From positions 2,093,501 to 2,157,500 of the forward strand of contig NZ_CP022604.1 of NCBI RefSeq assembly GCF_002278035.1: a stretch of 64,000 bases of DNA, in the 5' to 3' direction. The DNA comes from Ochrobactrum quorumnocens. GTDB lineage: Bacteria; Pseudomonadota; Alphaproteobacteria; Rhizobiales; Rhizobiaceae. Below the pieces are notes generated by a model that saw nothing but the letters and a program-made list of their open reading frames with translations, was not told where the DNA came from and searched no databases. Each line of letters begins with the position of its first letter. Position 1 is the stretch's first letter. Both the position numbers and the translations under genes were made by a program. Positions 8,805 to 48,562 of the stretch are shown here, piece by piece.

Positions 8805-8828
8805 GATCACGCTCAAACAAAGAACGCC

Positions 8829-9710
8829 ATGAACTGGGACGATATCCGCATATTCCTTGCCGTTGCGCGCTCTGGGCAGATTCTGGGCGCGGCCAAAAGG
8901 CTTGGCCTCAATCATACAACAGTTGCCCGCAGACTGACTGCACTTGAGGCTGCACTTTCCACGACTCTGCTGACGCGCCGAACCAACGGCTCGACGCTCA
9001 CGCAGGCGGGCGAGGAATTTCTGCTTGCAGCCGAACGCATGGAAGCAGAAATGCTTTCCGCGCGTTCGCAGGTCGGCAATGCGGATATCGCTGTTTCAGG
9101 TACAGTGCGGATCGGTGCGCCCGATGGTTTTGGCGTTACGTTTCTGGCTCCAAGGCTGGCGAGGCTGACACAGCAATATCCCGACCTCACGATCCAGCTT
9201 GTGCCGGTGCCGCGCTCCTTCTCATTGTCGCGACGTGAAGCAGATATAGCTATCACGGTCGAACGCCCGGAACAGGGGCGGCTGATCGCCCGCAGGCTGG
9301 TCGATTATACGCTCGGTCTTTTTGCACATCGCTCCTACATTGAAGCGAATGGCATGCCGGAAAGCGTCGAAGATCTGAACAAGCATCGGACCATTGGCTA
9401 TGTGGAAGATCTGGTGATCAATCCGTCTCTGGCATATGCGCCGGAAATCAGCCGCGATTGGAAGCCTGCTTTTGAAGTTTCAAGTGCGCTGGGACAGGTA
9501 GAGGCAGTTCGTGCGGGTGCTGGCATTGGCATTCTTCACGCGTTCATCGCACGCGCTGATCCCAATCTGGTGCCTGTTCTGCCCGATCGCATCATCCGTC
9601 GATCCTATTGGCTGACCTATCACGAATCCGCGCGCACCCTGCGGCGCGTTACTGCCGTCTCAGCTTTGATTTCCGAGCTGGTAGAGAGCGAGAAGTCGCT
9701 GTTTAGCTAG
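8829..9710 (+). CDS. LysR-family transcriptional regulator
   Basis: A 293-residue protein. The winged HTH is at residues 1-60 (MNWDDIRIFLAVARSGQILGAAKRLGLNHTTVARRLTALE), and the effector-binding fold follows from about residue 90. The DNA-binding half is close to the subgroup that carries HTTVARRL and often regulates adjacent dehydrogenase genes. Divergence from mmsA suggests control of methylmalonate-semialdehyde dehydrogenase and autoregulation; this is inference. ATG start at 8829 after caaagaacgcc, with a weak ribosome site. A palindromic repeat abuts its 3' end. Confidence 0.88.
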   Translation: MNWDDIRIFLAVARSGQILGAAKRLGLNHTTVARRLTALEAALSTTLLTRRTNGSTLTQAGEEFLLAAERMEAEMLSARSQVGNADIAVSGTVRIGAPDGFGVTFLAPRLARLTQQYPDLTIQLVPVPRSFSLSRREADIAITVERPEQGRLIARRLVDYTLGLFAHRSYIEANGMPESVEDLNKHRTIGYVEDLVINPSLAYAPEISRDWKPAFEVSSALGQVEAVRAGAGIGILHAFIARADPNLVPVLPDRIIRRSYWLTYHESARTLRRVTAVSALISELVESEKSLFS

Positions 9711-37558: not shown

Positions 37559-39064
37559 TTAGATATAGGCTTTGAAGGGAAGAGGAGGCGTGGTCTCAAG
37601 GGGCGCAGCTGTCAGAATTTCGCCTACGAGATCGGCAAATCGCAGTGTAACCGGAAGCCCATCTCCGAATGTGGCGCTATTAAAATTAAGTTTGGTTAGA
37701 GACATCAAGTCTTCCAGAACAGTTCGGATTTCCGCGTCACCTTTGACGATGTCTACCGTGAGTGGATTCGGAACTTCCCTTCCTGGGTATGTATTCAATC
37801 TGGGGACAAAGCCCGTAGTCCATAAGTAAGCACTTCGGCTGTTGGTGATAATGGCCGTACCACGAAGAATCGGATTTTTTCCGAATCGAAACAGCTTTAT
37901 CTCGGATTGTCTGCGAATTCGTATCCCGGTAAGGCGTGTTCCTTCCGGTACGGCTCGGCTAAAGCCGGACCACTCATCATCATCAAACCAGGTCTTGCCG
38001 TGGATGAACAGTTCAGATGGTGCCTTTCCATGCATGTCGATGTATGCGTCCACTATCATCTTCATGAGCTCATGGGCTTTCGCACCGCCGAGATGAAATG
38101 AATTGTCAGCCTCGGAAAACCAAGGACCGACTGCACCCTTGAAAACAACACCTTCTCCGGTATTCAAAAACATCTGAGCCCCGCAGCAGGCATTTTCGGC
38201 GCGGCCGGGAATATCCATCTTTTTAAAGACAAGGCCGACATAGCAAACGCCCTCACGAACATCGGCAACTTTCCAGGGGGTGCCCCCAGCCTTGTAGAAT
38301 GAGGTAGCTGCAAGGTTCCAAGCCACTGACGCAGGGTCTTGAAGCCGCCGTTTTGTATCGCCAAGGTTGCCCCCAGCCAAAGTCGTTTCACGGACGACCT
38401 GCAGGATTTGCCTTGTATCCAGCAGCCTTGCTTTCAATTGGTTATGGAAGTTCTCTTCGTACTTGTAAATCTCCGCTTCTTTGAGGTCCTCTTCGAAGAG
38501 CCAGCCACCCGTGAACATTCTGTTCGCTTGGCGCCTTCCAATTGCGCGGGACGGTATTTGCTCGCTTCGTGGGACTTTGGACTGTGGTCGGCCGTATTTA
38601 AAAACGATCTCCGGCACGATGACGAACCACAGCGCTGGCCGCTCCTCCTCCTGCAGTAGATGACGCCGCAAAGCTTCCTCGTATACGCTGACCGCTGAAT
38701 GGATAGCCTCACTGCGATCGCTGGAGCGTATACGAGTATCGAGTACCTCTGACGCAACCGCACAGGTTACAAATGGTTGCTCCGGCCAGTCGATTCCGAA
38801 AGCGGCCTGAAAGCCTGGCCACATCATTTTGTTCTCCGGCCTGCCAGCTTCCGGGGCACTGATAGTGCCTCTGATCGCCCTTACCCATGCCTTGAATAGC
38901 TCGATTCCCGCCGGTGTACCGATCACCCCTACATCCATTCGTGCTGGATTTCGGTTAGAGGCGGGCGGGCCATAGAGGAACAGACCATCCTTTGGATGTT
39001 GAGCCCTTTGACCATGCCCAAACGCTAGATTTGGTTCCTCAATGTGCACAACTTCCCATTTCAT
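37559..39064 (-). CDS. Short prokaryotic Argonaute (MID-PIWI), SPARTA type, catalytically dead
   Basis: A 501-residue protein with the length of short pAgos and no PAZ domain. PIWI features: VCYVGLVFKKMD where active Argonautes have a catalytic Asp, HELMKMIVDAYIDMHGKAPSELFIHGKTWFDDDEWSGF, and the C-terminal LMSLTKLNFNSATFGDGLPVTLRFADLVGEIL. The DEDX acidic set is missing, so it should bind guide RNA and target DNA but not cut. The start ATG overlaps the TIR-APAZ stop by 4 bp. Family knowledge: the pAgo/TIR-APAZ heterodimer, on finding plasmid transcripts' DNA target, tetramerises and degrades NAD(P)+. It ends 55 bp from the antitoxin relic. Confidence 0.88.
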   Translation of the reverse strand: MKWEVVHIEEPNLAFGHGQRAQHPKDGLFLYGPPASNRNPARMDVGVIGTPAGIELFKAWVRAIRGTISAPEAGRPENKMMWPGFQAAFGIDWPEQPFVTCAVASEVLDTRIRSSDRSEAIHSAVSVYEEALRRHLLQEEERPALWFVIVPEIVFKYGRPQSKVPRSEQIPSRAIGRRQANRMFTGGWLFEEDLKEAEIYKYEENFHNQLKARLLDTRQILQVVRETTLAGGNLGDTKRRLQDPASVAWNLAATSFYKAGGTPWKVADVREGVCYVGLVFKKMDIPGRAENACCGAQMFLNTGEGVVFKGAVGPWFSEADNSFHLGGAKAHELMKMIVDAYIDMHGKAPSELFIHGKTWFDDDEWSGFSRAVPEGTRLTGIRIRRQSEIKLFRFGKNPILRGTAIITNSRSAYLWTTGFVPRLNTYPGREVPNPLTVDIVKGDAEIRTVLEDLMSLTKLNFNSATFGDGLPVTLRFADLVGEILTAAPLETTPPLPFKAYI

Positions 39065-40458
39065 TCTTCGTCGCCCTCTCCAGCCAGGCTGTCCCCATCG
39101 AGGTCTTCGACATCGTCCTCGGGCTCTTCTTGCGGCGTGTCGGGCTCGTCATAGAGAAGAAGATCGGTTGGCATCCGTCGCGCCAGATCGATCGAGACGA
39201 GATCACGATCAAGCGAGAGTGCGTCCCGAGATCCAAGCTCAATCTCCACCGTGGGTTTGTCGTCGGCCAGAAATGCTATGAATGCCTCCTGAAGCCCTCT
39301 CCATTGGGGGTTCCACCAGTTTTTACAAAAGCGCTTCCTCATCGCGGAAGTTCGTTTGGGATCTGTGATCGGCGTGACCCCGTCTTCAGACCAACAGATA
39401 TACGGTTTGAAACGAACCACGGGGTCATCACCGATCGTGACATTCACCTTCATGGCCAGATGCCAGAAGACGCCCATCTTTTCACTTCGACCAACCACCG
39501 CTTTCCAAGTGCGTTTTCCCTGGGGAAGCTGGTAGAATACCTTGTTGTTCAGCAGTAAATCCTTTGGGAAAAAGTATGCGGCCTGTCTCCCTGAGAACTC
39601 TCGCAAGCCGCGTACGCACAGGTACCTCTCAATATTTGCGCGGAGCATTGCTGTTGCCATGTTTTTTGCGTCTATCTTTTTGGGGCGGGTTGCGCCCTTG
39701 TCCGTGCCATCGATGAATTCCTCGAATGCATACGATGAATGCTCGCTCAGCTTAAAGTGGTCTGGCAACCTTTCCTGGAGAAACCCGATGTCGGAGAAAG
39801 TGACGACAAGTCTGTAGAACTGGCTGCAGGGCACTTCAGTCTTTCTGAGCGCAGCCGAAAACTTGTCTAGGTCTCCCTGGAACGAAAAGACATTCACAGT
39901 CGTAGGCAGTTTGACGATCTGTACGAGGTTGGTGAGCGCGCGCTCGGTAGCCGCCTCGACGATGCTTGACGCGGATTCCGATATCCTCCGCCAGTCTTCA
40001 AAAAGGGTGCTGTCAGCGGACGCATCCTTCGTGACGCCCATCTTTTCAAGCGAGCGTATAAGATCCAGGTAGCCTTCTCCCCAGTTGCTTGAGAAGTCGA
40101 TGTGATGGAGTTGGTGAAGCTGAGCCGGAAATTCGTCTAGAGTGACGTCGTCGAGCCTTATTGGGATAATGAACCGACTATCCTTGAGAGTTCTGCTGCG
40201 CGAGTCGGCGATGGAAAGTTCATTGCGGAAACCCCTCCTGTCTGAGGCAACGCTAGCCTTCGAGACAACGCTGATGAATTTAACGCTATGCTCCCTTATC
40301 GCCACCTCTATGTCTGCCCAGAAAGGGCTACCACCCGTTGAATCAATCAACTCTGCCCAGACCTTGTAGCCCGCGCCTGTCAAGCGAGCGCTGAGCCATC
40401 TGACAAAGTCATTGTCTTCAGGTTTGGCGTGACTGATGAAGATAGTTTGCAAAGACAT
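39061..40458 (-). CDS. TIR-APAZ protein, NADase subunit of SPARTA
   Basis: A 465-residue protein. TIR domain at residues 1-~140: MSLQTIFISHAKPEDNDFVRWL, GYKVWAELID, VKFISVVSKASVASDRRGFRNELSIADS, with a likely catalytic Glu80 in RNEL (the position equivalent to Glu77 of the Crenotalea protein as I recall it). The APAZ part covers ~170-440 and substitutes for the missing N/PAZ lobes of the partner Argonaute. The tail is very acidic (EEPEDDVEDLDGD). Start ATG 40458. Divergent from the Thoeris operon with a 191-bp gap holding both promoters. Confidence 0.87.
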   Translation of the reverse strand: MSLQTIFISHAKPEDNDFVRWLSARLTGAGYKVWAELIDSTGGSPFWADIEVAIREHSVKFISVVSKASVASDRRGFRNELSIADSRSRTLKDSRFIIPIRLDDVTLDEFPAQLHQLHHIDFSSNWGEGYLDLIRSLEKMGVTKDASADSTLFEDWRRISESASSIVEAATERALTNLVQIVKLPTTVNVFSFQGDLDKFSAALRKTEVPCSQFYRLVVTFSDIGFLQERLPDHFKLSEHSSYAFEEFIDGTDKGATRPKKIDAKNMATAMLRANIERYLCVRGLREFSGRQAAYFFPKDLLLNNKVFYQLPQGKRTWKAVVGRSEKMGVFWHLAMKVNVTIGDDPVVRFKPYICWSEDGVTPITDPKRTSAMRKRFCKNWWNPQWRGLQEAFIAFLADDKPTVEIELGSRDALSLDRDLVSIDLARRMPTDLLLYDEPDTPQEEPEDDVEDLDGDSLAGEGDEE

Positions 40459-40649: not shown

Positions 40650-41309
40650 GTGACGTTTGGGCTCAGCGGCTACCAACAGCAGAAGAAGAGGCGCGTCTTT
40701 TTCTCTTTCCACTTCAAAGATATTATGAGGGTCAACAATGTCCGGAATTCGGGAGAATTCGCTCGATCCTCAAGCGATACTGGCCGAAATATCGAGGGTT
40801 ACTATGACGCCAGCTTGTGGGAATCGCGTAAGCTAGACGGCGATGAATCATTGAAGCGCCTCATCCGCGACGGTGTGAAGAATACTTCAGCGGTTTGTGT
40901 ATTGGTGGGGTCGCAAACATGGCATCGGCGCTGGGTACGCTACGAGATAGCCCGCAGCGTGGTGGATGGTAAAGGTCTTCTCGCAGTCCACATCAACAGC
41001 ATCAATCACCATGAGCGAAGACTCCCCGACGATAGGGGCGATAATCCCTGCCGCTACATAGGAATCGCTGCAGCCGAGAGCGGTCAATACTACCTGTGTG
41101 AGCGGTTTAATCACAACGGCGCCTGGAGCTGGCGATGGTATCAAGACTACACCCAGCCGATCGGTCTTCCCCAATATTTCCACTCCCCTCCGAACAGGGG
41201 AGCGCCCGTGCGCCTGTCAGAGATGACACACGAGTATGACTGGAGTCAAAACGGGTTCAAAAACATCGGGAATTGGATCGACATGGCAGCGTCAGCAGCG
41301 GGGCGCTAA
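40650..41309 (+). CDS. thsB: Thoeris ThsB-like TIR (DUF1863) sensor
   Basis: A 219-residue TIR-like protein of the MTH538/DUF1863 family: KRRVFFSFHFKDIMRVNNVRNSGEF, DGVKNTSAVCVLVGSQTWHRRWVRYEIARSVVDGKGLLAVHIN, where WVRYE carries the catalytic-type Glu. In Thoeris, ThsB recognises phage and turns NAD+ into a cyclic ADP-ribose isomer. The start is GTG 40650, preceded by cggagga nine bases upstream; an ATG at 40725 would remove the first beta strand. ThsA follows 196 bp downstream on the same strand. Confidence 0.85.
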   Translation: MTFGLSGYQQQKKRRVFFSFHFKDIMRVNNVRNSGEFARSSSDTGRNIEGYYDASLWESRKLDGDESLKRLIRDGVKNTSAVCVLVGSQTWHRRWVRYEIARSVVDGKGLLAVHINSINHHERRLPDDRGDNPCRYIGIAAAESGQYYLCERFNHNGAWSWRWYQDYTQPIGLPQYFHSPPNRGAPVRLSEMTHEYDWSQNGFKNIGNWIDMAASAAGR

Positions 41310-41505
41310 CGCCCCGTCACCAAACAGCGTTGCCTCGCAATAGTAGGCCCATTAACAAGATTGCACAGGACTAAATCGCGTAAGGAAGTTTTAGTACCGC
41401 CGCGCGCAATGAATCTGCTAGAGAATTGAGGGAGCGCGGCGGTCTGGGACGGCCGCCTTGCAGACATCAATACACGCTGTGGTTTTCTTGGAAAAGAAAA
41501 ACGTT

Positions 41506-42942
41506 ATGAAACCTAAGGTCAAGCAGTTCGTCGAACGTTACCTGAAAGAAATTGTCGAGGGTAACGCTGCAGTGTTCGCCGGAGCGGGTCTATCGGCTCC
41601 GGCCGGGTTCGTAAATTGGCGAGAGCTCCTTCGCCCGATCGCGGAAGAGCTCGACCTAGACGCCGATATTGAAACCGATTTTGTTGCTCTCGCACAGTTT
41701 CACCGCAACAAGCATCACGGAAACAAGGGGCAGCAAAACCAGCTTCTCATCGAACGGTTTGGCGTTCCGAAAAACCCCACTGCTAATCACAATACCCTCG
41801 CCCGACTGCCGATTGCGACCTATTGGACGACAAACTACGATGACTTGATCGAAAAATCCCTTTCAGCCCAGGGTAAAACACCAGATATAAAATATACGGA
41901 GGCCCATCTTGCCCTGACGCGACGGGGACGCGATGCCGTCGTCTTTAAAATGCATGGCGACATCTCAAACCCACAGGATGCCGTCCTGGCAAAGGATGAT
42001 TACGAGCGCTATCATGTAAACCGCGCAGCCTTTGTGACCGCCCTGTCAGGGGATCTTGTTTCGCGAACGTTTCTATTTCTTGGCTTCAGTTTTACCGATC
42101 CAAATCTCGATTATATCCTGAGCAGAGTTCGTCTCAACCTCGACGACAACCAGCGTAAACACTACTGCTTTTTCAAAAAGCGCACGAAAATGCCAGGGGA
42201 GACGGACGAGGCCTTTAAAAACGCCGTCGTTCGACAGGAACTCGTTATTGCGGATCTTCTGCGCTTCAATATTGAAGCCGTGTTGGTCGACGAGTACGCG
42301 GAGATCGATGAAGCCCTACAAATGCTTCACCGCCACTACCGAAGCAAGTCGGTATTCGTTTCGGGAAGCGCAGATACTTTTGATCCGTGGGGGCGATCCA
42401 AGGTCGAAGCATTCAGTCGCATTCTCGGCTCGGAACTGGCGAAGCACGGATATCGAGTGGTTACTGGCCTAGGTAAGGGCGTGGGGGATGCCTTACTCAG
42501 CGGCGTTGTTGACCAAGTTTATCGGACCTCCAGGAACCAACTTGACGACGCGCTGCTAGTTCGCCCCTTCCCGCAGCAGATCGCCGATGGTGATCGGGAG
42601 GCCGTATGGAGAAGGTATCGCGAGGAGCTTATTGGCGAGGCAGGAATTGCGATATTCCTTCTTGGCAACAAGAACGAAAACGGCGCCAATATCATCGCGG
42701 ATGGCATGAAACAGGAATTCGAGATCGCGGCAAGAGACAAGCTGATGGTAATTGCCATGGGCACATCAGGTTATGCTGCCAAAGAGATATTCGACGACGT
42801 TGCCGCCGCTCCGGAAACGTTTTTGTCTGATTTGTCGGCAGAGGCCAAATCCGCGGTACTGCTGCTCGGAGAGCTCGATGCCGAGCCGGACGTATTGGTG
42901 TCGGAAATATTGGAGGCAATCGCTACAGCGTTAAAAAAGTGA
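41506..42942 (+). CDS. thsA: Thoeris ThsA (SIR2 NADase with SLOG/STALD sensor domain)
   Basis: A 478-residue protein, against 476 for Bacillus cereus ThsA. SIR2 domain residues 1-~275: NAAVFAGAGLSAPAGFVNWREL, YWTTNYDDLIE with Asn110, VVFKMHGD with His150 (near-identical spacing to Asn112/His152 of B. cereus). SLOG domain ~280-478: KSVFVSGSADTFDPWG, VVTGLGKGVGDALLSGVVDQV. The ADPR-isomer made by ThsB binds SLOG and unleashes NAD+ hydrolysis, killing the infected cell. Start at MKPKVKQF; sixteen codons upstream are open but exceed the family. The stop is 10 bp before the next TIR gene. Confidence 0.92.
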   Translation: MKPKVKQFVERYLKEIVEGNAAVFAGAGLSAPAGFVNWRELLRPIAEELDLDADIETDFVALAQFHRNKHHGNKGQQNQLLIERFGVPKNPTANHNTLARLPIATYWTTNYDDLIEKSLSAQGKTPDIKYTEAHLALTRRGRDAVVFKMHGDISNPQDAVLAKDDYERYHVNRAAFVTALSGDLVSRTFLFLGFSFTDPNLDYILSRVRLNLDDNQRKHYCFFKKRTKMPGETDEAFKNAVVRQELVIADLLRFNIEAVLVDEYAEIDEALQMLHRHYRSKSVFVSGSADTFDPWGRSKVEAFSRILGSELAKHGYRVVTGLGKGVGDALLSGVVDQVYRTSRNQLDDALLVRPFPQQIADGDREAVWRRYREELIGEAGIAIFLLGNKNENGANIIADGMKQEFEIAARDKLMVIAMGTSGYAAKEIFDDVAAAPETFLSDLSAEAKSAVLLLGELDAEPDVLVSEILEAIATALKK

Positions 42943-42952
42943 TGGGGTTGGA

Positions 42953-43543
42953 GTGGCTTACCAATGGGACGTTTTCTTGAGTTATCCGCGAACGCCGTAC
43001 GTGGAGCCATGGCTGGATAATCACTTTTTTCCGCTGTTGCGCGACCATCTCGATGCGCTCTTGCCAGACGAACCACGGATTTTTCTAGATCGCGCCCAAC
43101 CAGTTGGTGTTGTTTGGCCCGACAATATCAAGACTGCTCTTAAGCACAGCAGAATAATGGTTGCTGTCTGGACACCGCCCTATTTTCGCTCTCACTGGTG
43201 CATTGCAGAATGGGAGAGCATGCTCGCACGTGAACAGCGGTATGCTCGTCCTGGCGCCGTCAACCAGTCAAGCCTCGTATATCCAATCAAATACTCGGAC
43301 GGACAAAATTTCGACAAGCGCGCCCAAGCTATCCAGGTGAAGGATCTCAGCAGCTTTGGCTACCCGCTGCCAAATTTTCGCGAAGCCATCGCGTACATTG
43401 ATTTCTACAACGCCGTTCGTGATGTCGCAGAGGATATTCAAGCCCGTCTCGCAGCAGCCCCTGAGTGGGAACCTGATTTCCCTCTTGTGGACGTTGAGCC
43501 AATTGCTCAAAAAGGCCCAAGAGTGCGGTTGCCGAGGATCTGA
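42953..43543 (+). CDS. Small TIR-domain protein, FxsC-like
   Basis: A 196-residue protein. TIR fold residues ~5-140: YQWDVFLSYPRTPYVEPWLDNHFFPLL, RIFLDRAQPVGVVWPDNIKTALKHSRIMVAVWTPPYFRSHWCIAEWESMLARE; the E in IAEWE fits the NADase Glu position. The FLD.....G..W...I..AL..S pattern resembles TIR-like FxsC proteins that accompany KGGVGR ATPases. The C-terminal ~50 residues are Pro-rich and unassigned. GTG start 42953, 10 bp after thsA; its stop is 1 base before the next gene's ATG, so it is tightly coupled to that ATPase gene. Either an extra Thoeris sensor or the partner of the ATPase. Confidence 0.8.
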   Translation: MAYQWDVFLSYPRTPYVEPWLDNHFFPLLRDHLDALLPDEPRIFLDRAQPVGVVWPDNIKTALKHSRIMVAVWTPPYFRSHWCIAEWESMLAREQRYARPGAVNQSSLVYPIKYSDGQNFDKRAQAIQVKDLSSFGYPLPNFREAIAYIDFYNAVRDVAEDIQARLAAAPEWEPDFPLVDVEPIAQKGPRVRLPRI

Positions 43544-43544
43544 G

Positions 43545-45725
43545 ATGAGAGGAACCGTAATCACATTCTATTCCTACAAAGGTGGGGTTGGGCGTTCTTT
43601 TGCGCTCGCTAATATCGCGGCATTGCTCGGCCGATGGGGGTTTCGCGTTCTGTGTGTGGATTGGGATCTGGAGGCCCCTGGCCTCGAAGACTTTTTCAAA
43701 CCTTACAGACGTGACAATCGCTTCCTCGAAGGAAATGGCCTTGTTGAGCTTTTGCTGGATTTCCATAAACGAGCCCAGGTTCCTTTGCTGTGGCGTGAAC
43801 TCGTCATCCCCTTGGATAGTCGCCAACTTCCCGGTGTCGATCTCATCAAATCCGGTCTCGCTGACGAAGGCTATACTCGCCGACTGCAACAGCTCAACTG
43901 GGACAGGCTTTACAAGAAAGGCCTAGGAGACGCGCTCGAAACGATGTTCGATGAAATCAGGGAAACCTACGATTTTGTCCTTATCGACTCGAGAACCGGT
44001 GTGACCGATTTTTCAGGCATCGTGACAGCGCAGCTACCTGATATTCTGGCGTTCTTGTTTACAGCAAACGAGCAGAGCATCAGCGGTGCGACAAAGGTAG
44101 CAAGACGCGCGACAACGATTAGAAACGACATTGCCCTCGACCGTTCTCCGTTGCTGACGCTGCCTATTCCGGCACGGTTTGAAGCGCAGGTTGAGCACCG
44201 AATATCACAAGAATGGCGAGAGAGATTCGTCGCTGAACTCAAAGAGTTTTATTCGGGTTGGGCCAGTCAGGATGCAAGGCTCGAAAAGCTGATTCCAGCT
44301 ACGACTATTCCATACGTCCCCTTTTGGAGCTTTGGTGAAAAACTCTCCGTTGTCGAAGATCCGATTGGGGACCAGTCAAGCATCAATTTTGCGATGGAGA
44401 ATCTGGCCGCGCTTCTCGCGCACAATCTGAGCAAGACACATCTTCTTGTTGGGTCGCGCGACGAATTCGTCGGGGCAGCACGAAGAATCGGCCGTGATCC
44501 CGAGAACAGGTCGGTCTTCATAGGCTTCTCATCTGAGCATCGAGACATCGGGGACAAGCTCGCTTCAGAGCTGAGCCGCAATGGTATTGACGTCAGAATT
44601 CCCGATCATGTCATTGCGGGAGAGGACTGGGCTCGATCTGTTTCGGATGCATTGGAAAATGTCGATCACTTTGTTCTGCTATTTGGCGACGGCGATGATC
44701 GAAACCGCGCCGTGGAAACTGACGTTCGCATGTTTCTACGGCAAGCTGCTTCTGATGAAAGACCACGTCTCCTGATACCATTTATATTGGAAGATGCAGG
44801 TACTGAGCGGCTCCCGTCCTACCTTCAACATCTGAAAACTTACGGCATCGCGAAGGACAACGTCGGCGCTGCCGCACAGCAAGTGCTGAAACTGATACGT
44901 CCTCATGAGGTGGCCGCGACCAGTGAACAGACGAGCATTCGTATCCATATCTTGGCAGATGGGAATAATCCAATCAACGGTGCGATGATTTCGGCGATCG
45001 CGGAAAACGGCACGACAATCGATGCCGTAAGTGACAGCGAAGGACGAGCGATACTGCCGGTGGTGCACTCGCGGACTTATCGAGTGCTTGTCGCGCACCC
45101 CCGTTACTGTCCCAAAATATTGACGAACCTGAATACATCAGAACAGCTGGAAGTCCGCCTGAAAAAGCGAGGCGATGTCGGCTCAATCATAATCCAGTCT
45201 ACAGGTCATATCGAAGGGCTGAGCGGACGGCTAAATCCCATTCTCGATACAAGCGAACGAACCTACTTGTATGCTGAGAATATTGCGATCGATGGCGGAA
45301 AGCGTCAGCCTACCACTTTCTCTGTCGATGAACCCTTCGTCCTAGAGGATGCTCATGGGCACGTTTTTCGTGCGATTGTCCGCTTCATTGAAGGCCGGAC
45401 CGCCTTGATCGAATACGAGCAGGTTGGATCACAGCTTGAAAAACTCGTGTCACTTCGAAATATGATCGACCGTGCTATCGGGATGCTGGCAGACCAAGCA
45501 GTTAAGAATGGGGACCTCAAGATAGCTGGCAGGAAGACGCCACCACGCCAACTGGCAGACATTGTCGTTCGCTCTGATCCAAGCCTATCACCGTCATATG
45601 GCATGCTCGTCGAATTCTGGGCCGTCGCAAACTCAGCGATCCACGGGCAGGACGTCACCACTACGGAAATCAATAAAGCACTTGATCTTGGCAGAAAGGC
45701 ACTTCAAATCCTCAGGTCAAATTAA
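43545..45725 (+). CDS. Multidomain KGGVGR-type ATPase - TIR - beta-sandwich - HEPN-like protein
   Basis: A 726-residue fusion with no exact family recognised. Residues 1-~290 are a MinD/ParA-like P-loop ATPase with deviant Walker A FYSYKGGVGRSFALANIA (Arg replaces the usual Lys), VLCVDWDLEAPGLEDFF and Walker B-like FVLIDSRTGVTDFSG. Residues ~320-455 are TIR-like (RSVFIGFSSEHRDIGDKLA, NRAVETDVRMFLRQA). Residues ~465-545 look like a transthyretin/carboxypeptidase-regulatory sandwich (NGAMISAIAENGTTIDAVSDSEGRAILPV). ~545-625 is an extra beta region (GLSGRLNPILDTSERTYLYAENIAIDGG). ~630-726 is helical with ANSAIHG, HEPN-like. ATG 43545 one base after the TIR stop. Confidence 0.75.
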   Translation: MRGTVITFYSYKGGVGRSFALANIAALLGRWGFRVLCVDWDLEAPGLEDFFKPYRRDNRFLEGNGLVELLLDFHKRAQVPLLWRELVIPLDSRQLPGVDLIKSGLADEGYTRRLQQLNWDRLYKKGLGDALETMFDEIRETYDFVLIDSRTGVTDFSGIVTAQLPDILAFLFTANEQSISGATKVARRATTIRNDIALDRSPLLTLPIPARFEAQVEHRISQEWRERFVAELKEFYSGWASQDARLEKLIPATTIPYVPFWSFGEKLSVVEDPIGDQSSINFAMENLAALLAHNLSKTHLLVGSRDEFVGAARRIGRDPENRSVFIGFSSEHRDIGDKLASELSRNGIDVRIPDHVIAGEDWARSVSDALENVDHFVLLFGDGDDRNRAVETDVRMFLRQAASDERPRLLIPFILEDAGTERLPSYLQHLKTYGIAKDNVGAAAQQVLKLIRPHEVAATSEQTSIRIHILADGNNPINGAMISAIAENGTTIDAVSDSEGRAILPVVHSRTYRVLVAHPRYCPKILTNLNTSEQLEVRLKKRGDVGSIIIQSTGHIEGLSGRLNPILDTSERTYLYAENIAIDGGKRQPTTFSVDEPFVLEDAHGHVFRAIVRFIEGRTALIEYEQVGSQLEKLVSLRNMIDRAIGMLADQAVKNGDLKIAGRKTPPRQLADIVVRSDPSLSPSYGMLVEFWAVANSAIHGQDVTTTEINKALDLGRKALQILRSN

Positions 45726-45764: not shown

Positions 45765-46064
45765 TTGCCAACATATGTTACGGAAGCTCAAGTCCGCGCA
45801 AAAATTGCCGGAGTTGACCAACAGGCAGCACGCGTATTTCTTGCCTTTCATAACGCTCTCGCAGCATTTCGTGACGAGTTTGATATTTTCCTATCTCACT
45901 CAATCAAAGACGCGAGCTTAATTCTTGGCATAAAGCGATTGCTCGAAGAGGCCGGGAAGTCAGTTTACATCGACTGGATCGGACACGCACTTCATCCGCG
46001 CGAACGTGCGCCCCCTGCTTTGCACCTGCTGATCTTGGATTTGTGTTTTATGTCGGGGATTTAG
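45765..46064 (+). pseudogene. Truncated TIR-domain gene
   Basis: The frame starts at a TTG (45765) after cggag. After an N-terminal helix, FDIFLSHSIKDASLILGIKRLLEEAGKSVYIDWIG is the first half of a TIR domain (residues ~38-72). Past about 45985 the sequence no longer resembles TIR (HALHPRERAPPALHLL) and stops at 46064, 73 bp short of the right direct repeat. The lost half includes the catalytic Glu. It probably was a third TIR sensor of the operon, cut when the island edge formed. Confidence 0.7.
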
Positions 46065-46292: not shown

Positions 46293-46907
46293 TCAGTGGG
46301 GTTTGGTTCGGCTTTTTGCGAAGCCAGCTTTCCCGAGCGTTCGGCGACGCGCCAGTTTCGCTATCCGCTCATTGATCGTATCGACGCCAATATCATTCGG
46401 CTCGAAGCGACCGCCATACCAGTCCACGACTTTGCGATGTTGTGCATGTCGTGGCTTTGACATTGCGATGAGGAAGTCTTCGAAGCCGGGCAAGCCGCCG
46501 ACATCTTCCGGCGGCGCGCGCCGGTCGCCGTCGAGGAAGCGCGGATATTCGACTGCCGGATCGGCGTCCGTGACGGCCTCGACAGTGATTGAGTGCCGCC
46601 AGTCGTCGCCGAAGTCATAGGTATAGTTGAAGGTGGTGATACCGCGATCCACCAGAGCGCCGATGCGAACATTGCGGGCAGCATAGGTATCAGCCCCGAA
46701 GTCCCATTCGGGATCGGGAACGGCATAGCGCTTGCCGCCGGCATTGAACTCGAAGAGGTGATAATCCTTGAAGAGCATGACGGCCTGGATGACGTCGTGC
46801 AGCCCCTTCAGACTGGTGGTGATCGGGACCTCGACCCTGCGCCAGATAACTGGCTCGATATGATCGAGCTTGATGTGAAGCCGGGCGATGCGTTCGTTGG
46901 ATGTCAT
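46293..46907 (-). CDS. pRiA4b ORF-3 family protein (IS66 passenger)
   Basis: A 204-residue protein: ARLHIKLDHIEPVIWRRVEVPITTSLKGLHDVIQAVM, HLFEFNAGGKRYAVPDPEW, FNYTYDFGDDWRHSITVEAV, PPEDVGGLPGFEDFL. This is the pRiA4b ORF-3 family, often found with IS66 in rhizobia; function unknown. ATG 46907 overlaps the tnpC stop by 4 bp, so it belongs to the element's transcript. The longer frame upstream overlaps tnpC and was rejected. Confidence 0.87.
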   Translation of the reverse strand: MTSNERIARLHIKLDHIEPVIWRRVEVPITTSLKGLHDVIQAVMLFKDYHLFEFNAGGKRYAVPDPEWDFGADTYAARNVRIGALVDRGITTFNYTYDFGDDWRHSITVEAVTDADPAVEYPRFLDGDRRAPPEDVGGLPGFEDFLIAMSKPRHAQHRKVVDWYGGRFEPNDIGVDTINERIAKLARRRTLGKAGFAKSRTKPH

Positions 46908-48562
46908 GATGCCAATGCCAGGGGTGACCGTGCCGATATCCAGTTCCACGGAAGCAGTTGCTCCAACTTGCTGAGCGGAGTGTCGGCGATGCGAGCAAGG
47001 ACGTCGGCGAGCCAGGCCTGCGGATCGATGTCGTTGAGCTTGGCGCTCATGATCAGCGTCGCCATGAAGGCGGCGCGATCTGCACCACGATCCGATCCGG
47101 CAAAGAGCCATGACTTCCTTCCGAGTGCAAAACCTCTGAGCGCGCGTTCGGCGGCATTGTTTGTGAGACAAATCCGGCCGTCGTCGAGGAATGACGTGAA
47201 GCCGTTCCAGCGCTTCAGCATGTAGTCGATTGCCTCGGCGACGGGAGAACTGCGCGACAGCTTTGCCCGCTCGGTTAGGAGCCAGTCGTGCAGTTCTTCG
47301 ACGAGCGGCTGGCTGTCCTTGCGACGGTGCTCCAGTCGTTGCTGGGCGGCAAGACCGTTTGTATCGCGTTCGATGTCGAACAGGGCGTCGATCCGTTTTA
47401 CCACCTCCAGCGCCATCGGCGAGATCGGCGCGGCTTTGCTGCCACGTTTGGCATTCGTGGCAATGTCAGCGAGCACGAAGAACTTGCGGCGCGCGTGTGC
47501 CCAGCACAGCGCCTGTGTCAGAGGCGCGGGATCGCGATCAATCTTGAACAGCGGGTTGTAGCCGCCATAGGCATCTGCTTGCAGAATGCCGGTGAAGGTC
47601 TTCAGGTGGCGTTCGGGATGCTCCTGTCGCCGGTCTCGCGAGGCATAGTAGAGGGCGGCGGGCGGTGACTGCCCGCCGAACGGCCGGTCATCCCGGACAT
47701 AGGTCCAGATGCGGCCCGTATCGGTCTTGCCCTTCGCCAGGATCGGCACGGTGGTGTCGTCGCCATGCAGCCGCTCGGCGGCCATGACATGCGCCTCGAT
47801 CAGAGAATGGATGGGCTTCAGGGCAGCGGCACACGCGCCGACCTGGTCGGCCAGCGTCGACAGGCTGAGGACAATGCCCTCTCGGGCATAGCGCTCGCTT
47901 TGACGGTTCAGCGGTTGGTGCTGGGCGAACTTCTCGAACAGGATCATCGCCAGAAGGTTGGGTCCGGCAAAGCCGCGCGGCGTCACATGGAAGGGCGCTG
48001 GTGGCTGCGTGATCTTCTCGCATTCGCGGCAGGAGAACTTCTCCCGCACCGTCTGGATGACCTTCCACTGACGTGGGATGACCTCCAGGGTCTCGGTGAT
48101 ATCCTCGCCGAGCTTCGACAGCTTGGCTGAACCGCAGCAGAGGCAGGTTGTCGGGGCAGCGATGACGACACGCTCGCGCGGCAGATGTTCTGGAAACGGC
48201 TTGCGTGACGGACGTCTGCGCTCAAAGGCCCTGACGGTCGAGGCATTGGCTGCGATCTCTGCTGCCAGTTCATCTTCGCCAGCATCAGCCTCCAGCTCCT
48301 CGAGCTGTAGTTCCATCTGTTCAAGGAGCCGCGCTTTGCGCTCAGACCTGCTGCCGTAGAGCTCACGGCGAACCTTCTCGATCTCCAGCTTCAACCGCGC
48401 GATCAACGCCTCGGAATGTGACACCAGTGCCTTTGCGCTGGCGGCCTCCGCCTTGGCGGTCGCGGCATCTGCCTCGGCCGTGATGCGCCGGGCACGCTCC
48501 TTCGCCAGGGCCGCAAGTGCGCTGGCAAGGTCGTCAGGAAGCTGTTCGGCCGCATTGTTCAT
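46904..48562 (-). CDS. tnpC: IS66 transposase TnpC
   Basis: A 552-residue DDE transposase. N-terminal leucine-zipper-like coiled coil (residues ~10-90), a zinc-finger region (TTCLCCGSAKLSKLGEDITE, FSCRECEKITQPPAP), then the catalytic core with ERLHGDDTTVPILAKGK, LQADAYGGYNPLF, and LTNNAAERALRGFALGRKSWLFAGSDRGADRAA. Intact and full length. Confidence 0.96.
   Translation of the reverse strand: MNNAAEQLPDDLASALAALAKERARRITAEADAATAKAEAASAKALVSHSEALIARLKLEIEKVRRELYGSRSERKARLLEQMELQLEELEADAGEDELAAEIAANASTVRAFERRRPSRKPFPEHLPRERVVIAAPTTCLCCGSAKLSKLGEDITETLEVIPRQWKVIQTVREKFSCRECEKITQPPAPFHVTPRGFAGPNLLAMILFEKFAQHQPLNRQSERYAREGIVLSLSTLADQVGACAAALKPIHSLIEAHVMAAERLHGDDTTVPILAKGKTDTGRIWTYVRDDRPFGGQSPPAALYYASRDRRQEHPERHLKTFTGILQADAYGGYNPLFKIDRDPAPLTQALCWAHARRKFFVLADIATNAKRGSKAAPISPMALEVVKRIDALFDIERDTNGLAAQQRLEHRRKDSQPLVEELHDWLLTERAKLSRSSPVAEAIDYMLKRWNGFTSFLDDGRICLTNNAAERALRGFALGRKSWLFAGSDRGADRAAFMATLIMSAKLNDIDPQAWLADVLARIADTPLSKLEQLLPWNWISARSPLALAS

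Follow-up and report, generated by a model that had tools for sequence, protein, structure and literature searches.

Organization of the locus

The stretch considered here (the window) comprises 64,000 nucleotides of Ochrobactrum quorumnocens (contig NZ_CP022604.1, positions 2,093,501 to 2,157,500), and its subject is a pair of genes at 42953..45725, the first encoding a small TIR protein and the second a large ParA-like ATPase with a KGGVGR motif. Both lie on the plus strand, one base apart, as the initial annotation had placed them. The gene for the Thoeris protein ThsA ends 10 bases ahead of the small TIR gene on the same strand, and the full plus-strand order is ThsB, ThsA, small TIR, KGGVGR protein and a truncated second ThsB (Table 1). 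The pair is read here, with moderate confidence, as a two-gene sensing and signalling unit that feeds a co-encoded effector, in this case ThsA; its roles in phage defence and signalling are predictions from sequence comparison.

Conservation of the gene pair

Relatives were compared at 80 genome loci (L numbers denote loci and P numbers proteins from relatives; phyla are named as in the sequence records), which are the best of at least 571 confirmed matches, so that the sample leans towards close relatives. An ATPase open reading frame (ORF) scoring above 150 bits is present at 75 of them, and directly upstream of it 74 carry a relative of the small TIR protein, recognized by a profile built from 36 sequences (alignment A2). 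The same pairing is seen in the window and on a plasmid of S. chiapasense (L085), and the absence of a conserved pairing, which the initial annotation had named as refuting its proposal, is not what is observed. The exceptions are L072, which is among the 75, and two viral-contig loci. At the five genome loci without an ATPase ORF above 150 bits, a small TIR gene is adjacent by coordinates in four, the fifth being L063. Pairs occur in Actinobacteria, Bacteroidetes, Acidobacteria, Planctomycetes, Cyanobacteria and Proteobacteria, with a spacing of 6-57 nucleotides between the stop of the small TIR gene and the point four residues before KGG; overlaps of 4 nucleotides are common.

The two proteins also diverge in step (Mantel r 0.82 over 76 pairs, a value reached in none of 999 shuffles, and 0.68 within the 40 non-actinobacterial pairs), a correlation to which shared organismal history contributes. 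Chance pairing and a rhizobial peculiarity were both rejected, because the pairing is conserved across phyla and its members co-diverge. The converse, that every KGGVGR protein has a small TIR partner, was rejected as well, owing to distant KGGVGR loci that lack it: no small TIR of this family was found at seven more distant NF047398 loci (L110-L116, from six alphaproteobacterial genomes) or at thirteen viral-contig loci (L086-L098), and none of the six pattern matches of viral contigs to the small-TIR alignment was confirmed. Sweeps of the family and phylum returned the genome of the window alone (1/394, with two candidates scored per genome; 1/398 for the small TIR), and a genus sweep around R. 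mongolense returned that genome alone (1/148).

The small TIR protein and its large partner

The nearest named relatives of the small TIR protein are from Rhizobium leguminosarum (83%) and Ensifer (82%). Its Glu86 aligns with the glutamate of WCLxE in plant TIR proteins; the column is glutamate in 36/36 sequences of alignment A2 and at all 76 paired loci, the latter count resting on two alignments, which may favour glutamate in divergent members. Trp82 is retained in 62 of the 76. Since Glu86 is kept throughout, whereas the TIR domain of the large protein has an aspartate in the window, the small protein is the likely enzyme of the two, and its predicted site for cleaving nicotinamide adenine dinucleotide (NAD) looks intact.

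The large protein begins with an ATPase domain that matches the MinD fold (MinD/ParA, of the SIMIBI class), in agreement with the ParA-like assignment made initially. The canonical deviant Walker A motif of ParA and MinD reads KGGxGK[ST], with a P-loop lysine. This lysine is replaced in the present family, where the P-loop reads KGG[VT]GR[ST] in 79/79 proteins with an ATPase match above 150 bits, and K12 and R17 are invariant across the 38 sequences of alignment A1. The KGGVGR proteins would be expected to bind nucleotide with altered hydrolysis, and the question arises of why the P-loop lysine is always arginine. A TIR domain often follows in this family, as it does in the window. In this domain the catalytic column of close relatives is glutamate in 29 of 38 sequences (aspartate in 7, isoleucine and alanine in 1 each), and that of wider relatives is glutamate in 35 of 40 (aspartate in 3, alanine and isoleucine in 1 each).

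The C-terminal part varies as well. Apart from the arrangement of the window, in which a transthyretin (TTR)-like domain, a beta domain and helices follow one another, the KGGVGR proteins end in TPR and TIR domains (L054), NACHT and FGE (L052, L037), FGE (L069, L079), a CATASP-like domain (L008, 26.3 of 29 bits), FxSxx_TPR (L070) or a ThsB-type TIR (P0050, P0053, P0058), as would be expected if one common switch were fitted with different recognition modules. The full domain order of the window protein, which the initial annotation had not recognized as a named system, is covered by no single match to a Pfam, NCBIfam or PADLOC model.

The helical end of the 726-residue form had been described as HEPN-like, which the sequence does not support. 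The HEPN ribonuclease motif is Rx4-6H; here A695 stands at the position of the required arginine, five residues before H700, and alanine is also found in the other six sequences with the AN-x3-HG motif. No Pfam match was obtained for this end, which is a minor variant present in 9/38 aligned homologues, and a HEPN ribonuclease was rejected on these three grounds. A fold search returned no HEPN among 50 rows, which is a weak test of the fold itself.

Upstream genes and the probable link to Thoeris

The genes upstream of the pair change from locus to locus. Part of 45 mechanically listed upstream ORFs was scanned, and the following are examples rather than a rate. At L060 a classic patatin lies 11 nucleotides upstream on the same strand (117 bits in Pfam; 196 bits for the PADLOC model 'Effector, Phospholipase'), and the stretch examined there yielded neither ThsA nor ThsB. 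At L085 the upstream gene (gap 210, same strand) encodes an 889-residue patatin-like protein that scores just under the PF01734 cut-off (25.3 against 27.7 bits); its relatives at L004 and L079 pass it (32.2 and 31.5 bits), neither being directly upstream of the pair. A DUF7379-CHAT-LCAT protein precedes the pair at L058 (gap 30, same strand). PDC-M50A, a small protein that may be membrane-located to judge by its sequence, does so at L044 (gap 15, same strand), and at L054 PDC-M50A and then ThsB stand ahead of the pair. L018, from an Anaerolineae metagenome-assembled genome, has directly upstream (8820-9338, gap 56, same strand) a gene of the 8xMP family of octameric membrane proteins (PF24838, 137.9 bits), whose product is a possible membrane effector.

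The large patatin-like proteins of L085 (8529-11198), L004 (16079-19048) and L079 (15127-17862) share an N-terminal domain with the motif VRPFTAKWH. The 220-residue gene directly upstream of the pair at L024 (2822-3484, gap 23, same strand) corresponds to this domain only, and weaker copies occur in L029 and L056; the domain is adaptor-like.

In the window the TIR proteins of the pair stand beside ThsA in one gene run, as in Thoeris of the SIR2-SLOG type with several ThsB. Both components that Thoeris requires, ThsA and at least one ThsB, are present there by PADLOC and Pfam. Unlike the ThsB proteins, however, neither member of the pair matches a PADLOC ThsB model (at E <= 0.1), and the small TIR reaches 17.8 of the required 220 bits for NCBIfam ThcB4. 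ThsB-type genes were found in the window, in L085 and at 4 of the 80 genome loci (L004, L052, L054, L079; the match at L052 is weak, 35-38 bits in PADLOC), which is a lower bound, since the two ThsB profiles used overlook other types of ThsB, as well as genes lost where a contig is cut. The profiles 'thsb', 'thsb2' and 'pat' were partly built from loci that they later matched, and the PADLOC and Pfam scans provide the independent test. Because PF08937 is rare (34 matches in 26/240 alphaproteobacterial genomes), ThsB should rarely be near by chance, though defence islands break this independence, and nearness was for that reason rejected as proof of a link. The proteins P0050, P0053 and P0058, in which ThsB is fused to KGGVGR-TIR, are on sequence grounds the stronger evidence.

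These fusions would also suit a pair that makes no signal of its own and is an accessory of ThsB, gating or co-assembling with the ThsB TIRs and so widening what Thoeris detects. The gene order of the window, with a ThsB at either end, and the several TIR genes per locus (four in L085) are consistent with this. It is nevertheless improbable, given that the pair and the glutamate of its TIR are kept although so few of the genome loci have a ThsB gene.

A putative signalling unit

Under the preferred reading, that of a signalling unit, the large protein would be a dimerising nucleotide switch of the MinD/ParA type with a scaffolding TIR domain, here degenerate, and its exchangeable C-terminal part would detect the threat, presumably a phage. 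Once activated, it would assemble with the small TIR protein and switch it on, and the TIR product, an ADP-ribose-type signal, would activate the effector encoded upstream. In the window that role would fall to ThsA, and at other loci to a patatin, to a protein of the CHAT/lipase kind or to a small one that may be membrane-bound. In ThsA, ADP-ribose-type signals are sensed by the SLOG domain, whereupon the SIR2 domain depletes NAD and the infected cell is halted. The division of labour is modelled on the Thoeris system of Staphylococcus aureus, which likewise has one catalytic and one sensing TIR: the major head protein of the phage is bound by ThsB1, which can do without its own putative catalytic residues and which brings in and switches on ThsB2, the small catalytic partner (PMC12578639). 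By analogy, the ATPase protein would be the sensing partner.

The initial annotation had put the pair forward as a candidate defence system of its own. A role in TIR-type immunity is indeed suggested by the neighbouring genes and the fusions, but in the window the pair is probably not free-standing, since it lies between thsA and the second thsB and other likely effectors fill the place of ThsA at some loci. Here it is probably a TIR signalling unit that has been captured by a Thoeris operon.

Several points weigh against this reading. Of the 102 sources scanned, the window alone yielded ThsA, and Thoeris, SPARTA and the pair could be neighbours through the clustering of defence genes. Many loci have no recognized effector, many of the other listed upstream ORFs look spurious, and at L040 and L056 the upstream genes encode other TIR proteins (TIR-NACHT-FGE and TIR-Sel1). 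Actinobacteria have conserved extra genes downstream of the pair: a protein of about 1030 residues at 15 loci (AAA/HerA-like in L008, the one scanned) and a 210-residue protein at 10 loci, 7 of them among those 15 (without a Pfam match in L008). A direct motif test on the small TIR gave a less clear picture than the alignments and found the strict form in 12/76 and WCxxE in 62/76, with another residue in 1/76 and no WC in 13/76. Because most relatives have glutamate in the TIR of the large protein, 'degenerate' may hold for the lineage of the window only, in which this TIR may have lost catalysis. In a Thoeris system of Streptococcus, moreover, the roles are swapped and catalysis falls to ThsB1 (PMC12578639).

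The singular ThsA and the many loci without a recognized effector would equally fit a stand-alone abortive-infection NADase, in which the small TIR, released or assembled by the ATPase, drains NAD itself while Thoeris and SPARTA are mere neighbours; SPARTA does occupy the opposite strand of this island. This is unlikely, if a serious contender, as it leaves aside the recurrence of likely effectors in the upstream slot across different phyla, the 10-base distance to ThsA on the same strand and the fusions of ThsB to KGGVGR proteins.

Relation to known systems

The closest known arrangement is that of FxsC and FxsT of the FxSxx-COOH systems (NF040588, TIGR04276, NF040586), where a KGGVGR ATPase gene is likewise immediately preceded by a TIR gene. 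A genuine FxsC-FxsT locus, L070, belongs to the same set of pairs (FxsC 177 bits, its C-terminal domain 121 bits, FxSxx_TPR 809 bits). By contrast, the small TIR of the window reaches 58.1 of the required 130 bits for FxsC_Nterm and has no TIGR04276 match at E <= 0.1, and the large protein, with its TIR-TTR-beta-helices arrangement, has no FxSxx_TPR (NF040586) match at E <= 0.1. The initial description of the small protein as FxsC-like is thus right about kinship and falls short of membership. The claim of an undescribed system is likewise only partly sustained, as no Pfam, NCBIfam or PADLOC match covers the domain order, but the genes are related to the known FxsC and FxsT genes. Assigning the pair to ThsB or to FxsC/FxsT was rejected, since the defining scores were not reached. 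Real FxsC-FxsT genes being one branch of the pair, the pair looks like their common core.

This kinship raises a further alternative, a non-phage system of FxSxx-like or developmental programmed death with the ATPase itself as effector. The shared arrangement would allow it, and MinD/ParA-like domains are treated as predicted inactive effector domains in one paper (PMC7159879). It is very improbable, because the window pair lacks both the FxSxx_TPR and the FxsC C-terminal match, and its occurrence in the genome sweeps (1/394, 1/398, 1/148) is as patchy as that of defence genes.

In the part available, the same paper reports MinD/ParA-like domains, 'predicted inactive', from conflict systems of the VMAP ternary and peptide-processing kinds, near TIR, AP-ATPase and TPR parts, which resembles the situation here (Kaur et al., 2020; PMC7159879). 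There, however, they are described as effectors of MoxR-vWA systems or stand beside FxSxx peptide systems, and that part does not mention a TIR-KGGVGR gene pair whose upstream effector varies. The terms MinD and FxsC do not occur in a second paper (Kaur et al., 2021; PMC8195603). Thoeris, for its part, is described as one ThsA with one or several ThsB in a source in which 'ATPase' does not occur (PMC11204291). Among the papers listed from the open-licence literature, none deals with the TIR-KGGVGR pair by title or term counts.

Two further systems share neighbours with the pair. The patatin adjoining it at L060 matches a model from a set that we take to be that of the cyclic-oligonucleotide-based antiphage signalling system (CBASS), and is comparable to CBASS with a phospholipase effector, except that the pair occupies the position of the signal maker. 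The PADLOC candidate PDC-M50 (A, a small protein; B, a ThsB-like TIR) supplies the A protein upstream of the pair at L044 and before ThsB-TIR-KGGVGR at L054, but its A and B models match neither gene of the pair, and it is a candidate system only.

More tentatively than the signalling unit itself, it may be proposed that the pair forms the core of an unnamed class of second-messenger immunity parallel to CBASS and Thoeris: an ancient, co-inherited signal-making pair found across phyla, in which both the effector encoded upstream (SIR2-SLOG, patatins, CHAT/lipase, small membrane proteins) and the part of the ATPase that serves recognition (TPR, NB-ARC, NACHT, FGE, ThsB-TIR, TTR-beta) can be exchanged, and of which FxSxx-COOH would be one decorated branch and the window copy one captured by a Thoeris operon. 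If so, a widespread unnamed pair would become a testable immunity class in which a TIR enzyme is under the control of a ParA-type switch instead of a nucleotide cyclase or a STAND ATPase. A role would be suggested for proteins annotated as 'KGGVGR-motif variant AAA ATPase' and for FxsC/FxsT, and Thoeris would be extended by a new input and by new effectors (patatins).

Genomic context

The coordinates of the pair, its domains and its neighbours are collected in Table 1.

Table 1. Genes and domains at and around the TIR-KGGVGR pair in the window.
Feature	Position	Strand	Details
Small TIR protein	42953..43543	+	196 residues; predicted catalytic NAD-cleaving subunit; Glu86 in PPYFRSxWCxAEW
Large KGGVGR ATPase–TIR–TTR-like–beta domain–helical end protein	43545..45725	+	726 residues; predicted sensor/switch partner
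MinD/ParA-fold ATPase domain	43545..44450	+	Residues 1-302; KGGVGRS, K12 kept, P-loop Lys replaced by R17
TIR domain of the large protein	44505..44903	+	Residues 321-453; catalytic position is Asp393
Transthyretin/carboxypeptidase-regulatory-like domain	44916..45164	+	Residues 458-540
Beta domain without Pfam match	45165..45428	+	Residues 541-628; IPGLxGRLNPIxDxxxRTYLYAxNIAIxGGxxQP
Four-helix end	45429..45722	+	Residues 629-726; AN-x3-HG motif, no HEPN Arg
ThsB (Thoeris TIR)	40650..41309	+	PF08937 74.9 bits (cut-off 21.2); PADLOC ThsB 149 bits
ThsA (SIR2 + STALD/SLOG)	41458..42942	+	STALD 197.6, SIR2_2 103.7 bits; PADLOC ThsA 611 bits
Second ThsB, truncated	45765..46064	+	PADLOC PDLC00422 65 bits
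SPARTA TIR-APAZ	39061-40458	minus	PADLOC 498 bits
SPARTA short pAgo	37559-39064	minus	PADLOC 688 bits
IS66 transposase	46904-48562	minus	PF03050 300 bits

SPARTA is divergent from the Thoeris genes, and two NAD-based systems are in this way set back to back. The truncated second ThsB covers only positions 2-82 of the 194-position PADLOC model; a full-length relative is encoded at L085 (7175-7768, 215 bits). Downstream of it (46293-48562) follow a pRiA4b ORF-3-like gene and the IS66 transposase, and the guanine-plus-cytosine fraction climbs from about 0.52 to 0.60-0.62. A search for inverted repeats bounding the IS66 copy gave no convincing ends.

On the S. chiapasense plasmid, four consecutive TIR genes (L085:5407-8313), three of ThsB type and one encoding a 383-residue TIR protein whose N-terminal part belongs to no assigned family, lie beside the divergent patatin-TIR-KGGVGR genes. 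In R. mongolense, the ThsB-type gene adjoins a gene for a 153-residue protein (L004:13028-13489) without a Pfam or PADLOC match and lies near one for an RT-TIR (type XII) protein (L004:14477-15985).

The beta domain

Residues 541-628 of the large protein match nothing in Pfam at E <= 5, and the fold-search lists are taken up by the neighbouring TTR and helical parts. When residues 455-628 served as query, 110 proteins were returned, of which 88 were new; all 88 contain the beta domain, 64 also have a TTR match and 86 match neither the KGGVGR nor the TIR profiles. As these proteins were retrieved with that very region, the counts reflect the spread of architectures and not their frequency. Among the proteins scanned, the N-terminal partners are trypsin (P0166), M48 peptidase (P0169), caspase (P0176), CHAT (P0178), AAA_14/DUF4143 (P0187), Schlafen AlbA_2 with HATPase (P0193) and Fic (P0236), the majority of the 88 being of the AlbA_2/HATPase kind; P0175 and P0177 list PF07804, presumably a HipA-type family, in precomputed annotation. 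The motif given in Table 1 is little changed among the 18 sequences compared. Judged by these architectures, the beta domain seems to move between conflict proteins as an adaptor or as a module for recognition, without being specific to the present system, and its recurrence in caspase, trypsin, CHAT, Fic and Schlafen-type proteins opens another line of enquiry, which may point to a common trigger. One of them, P0166, carries three copies of the domain.

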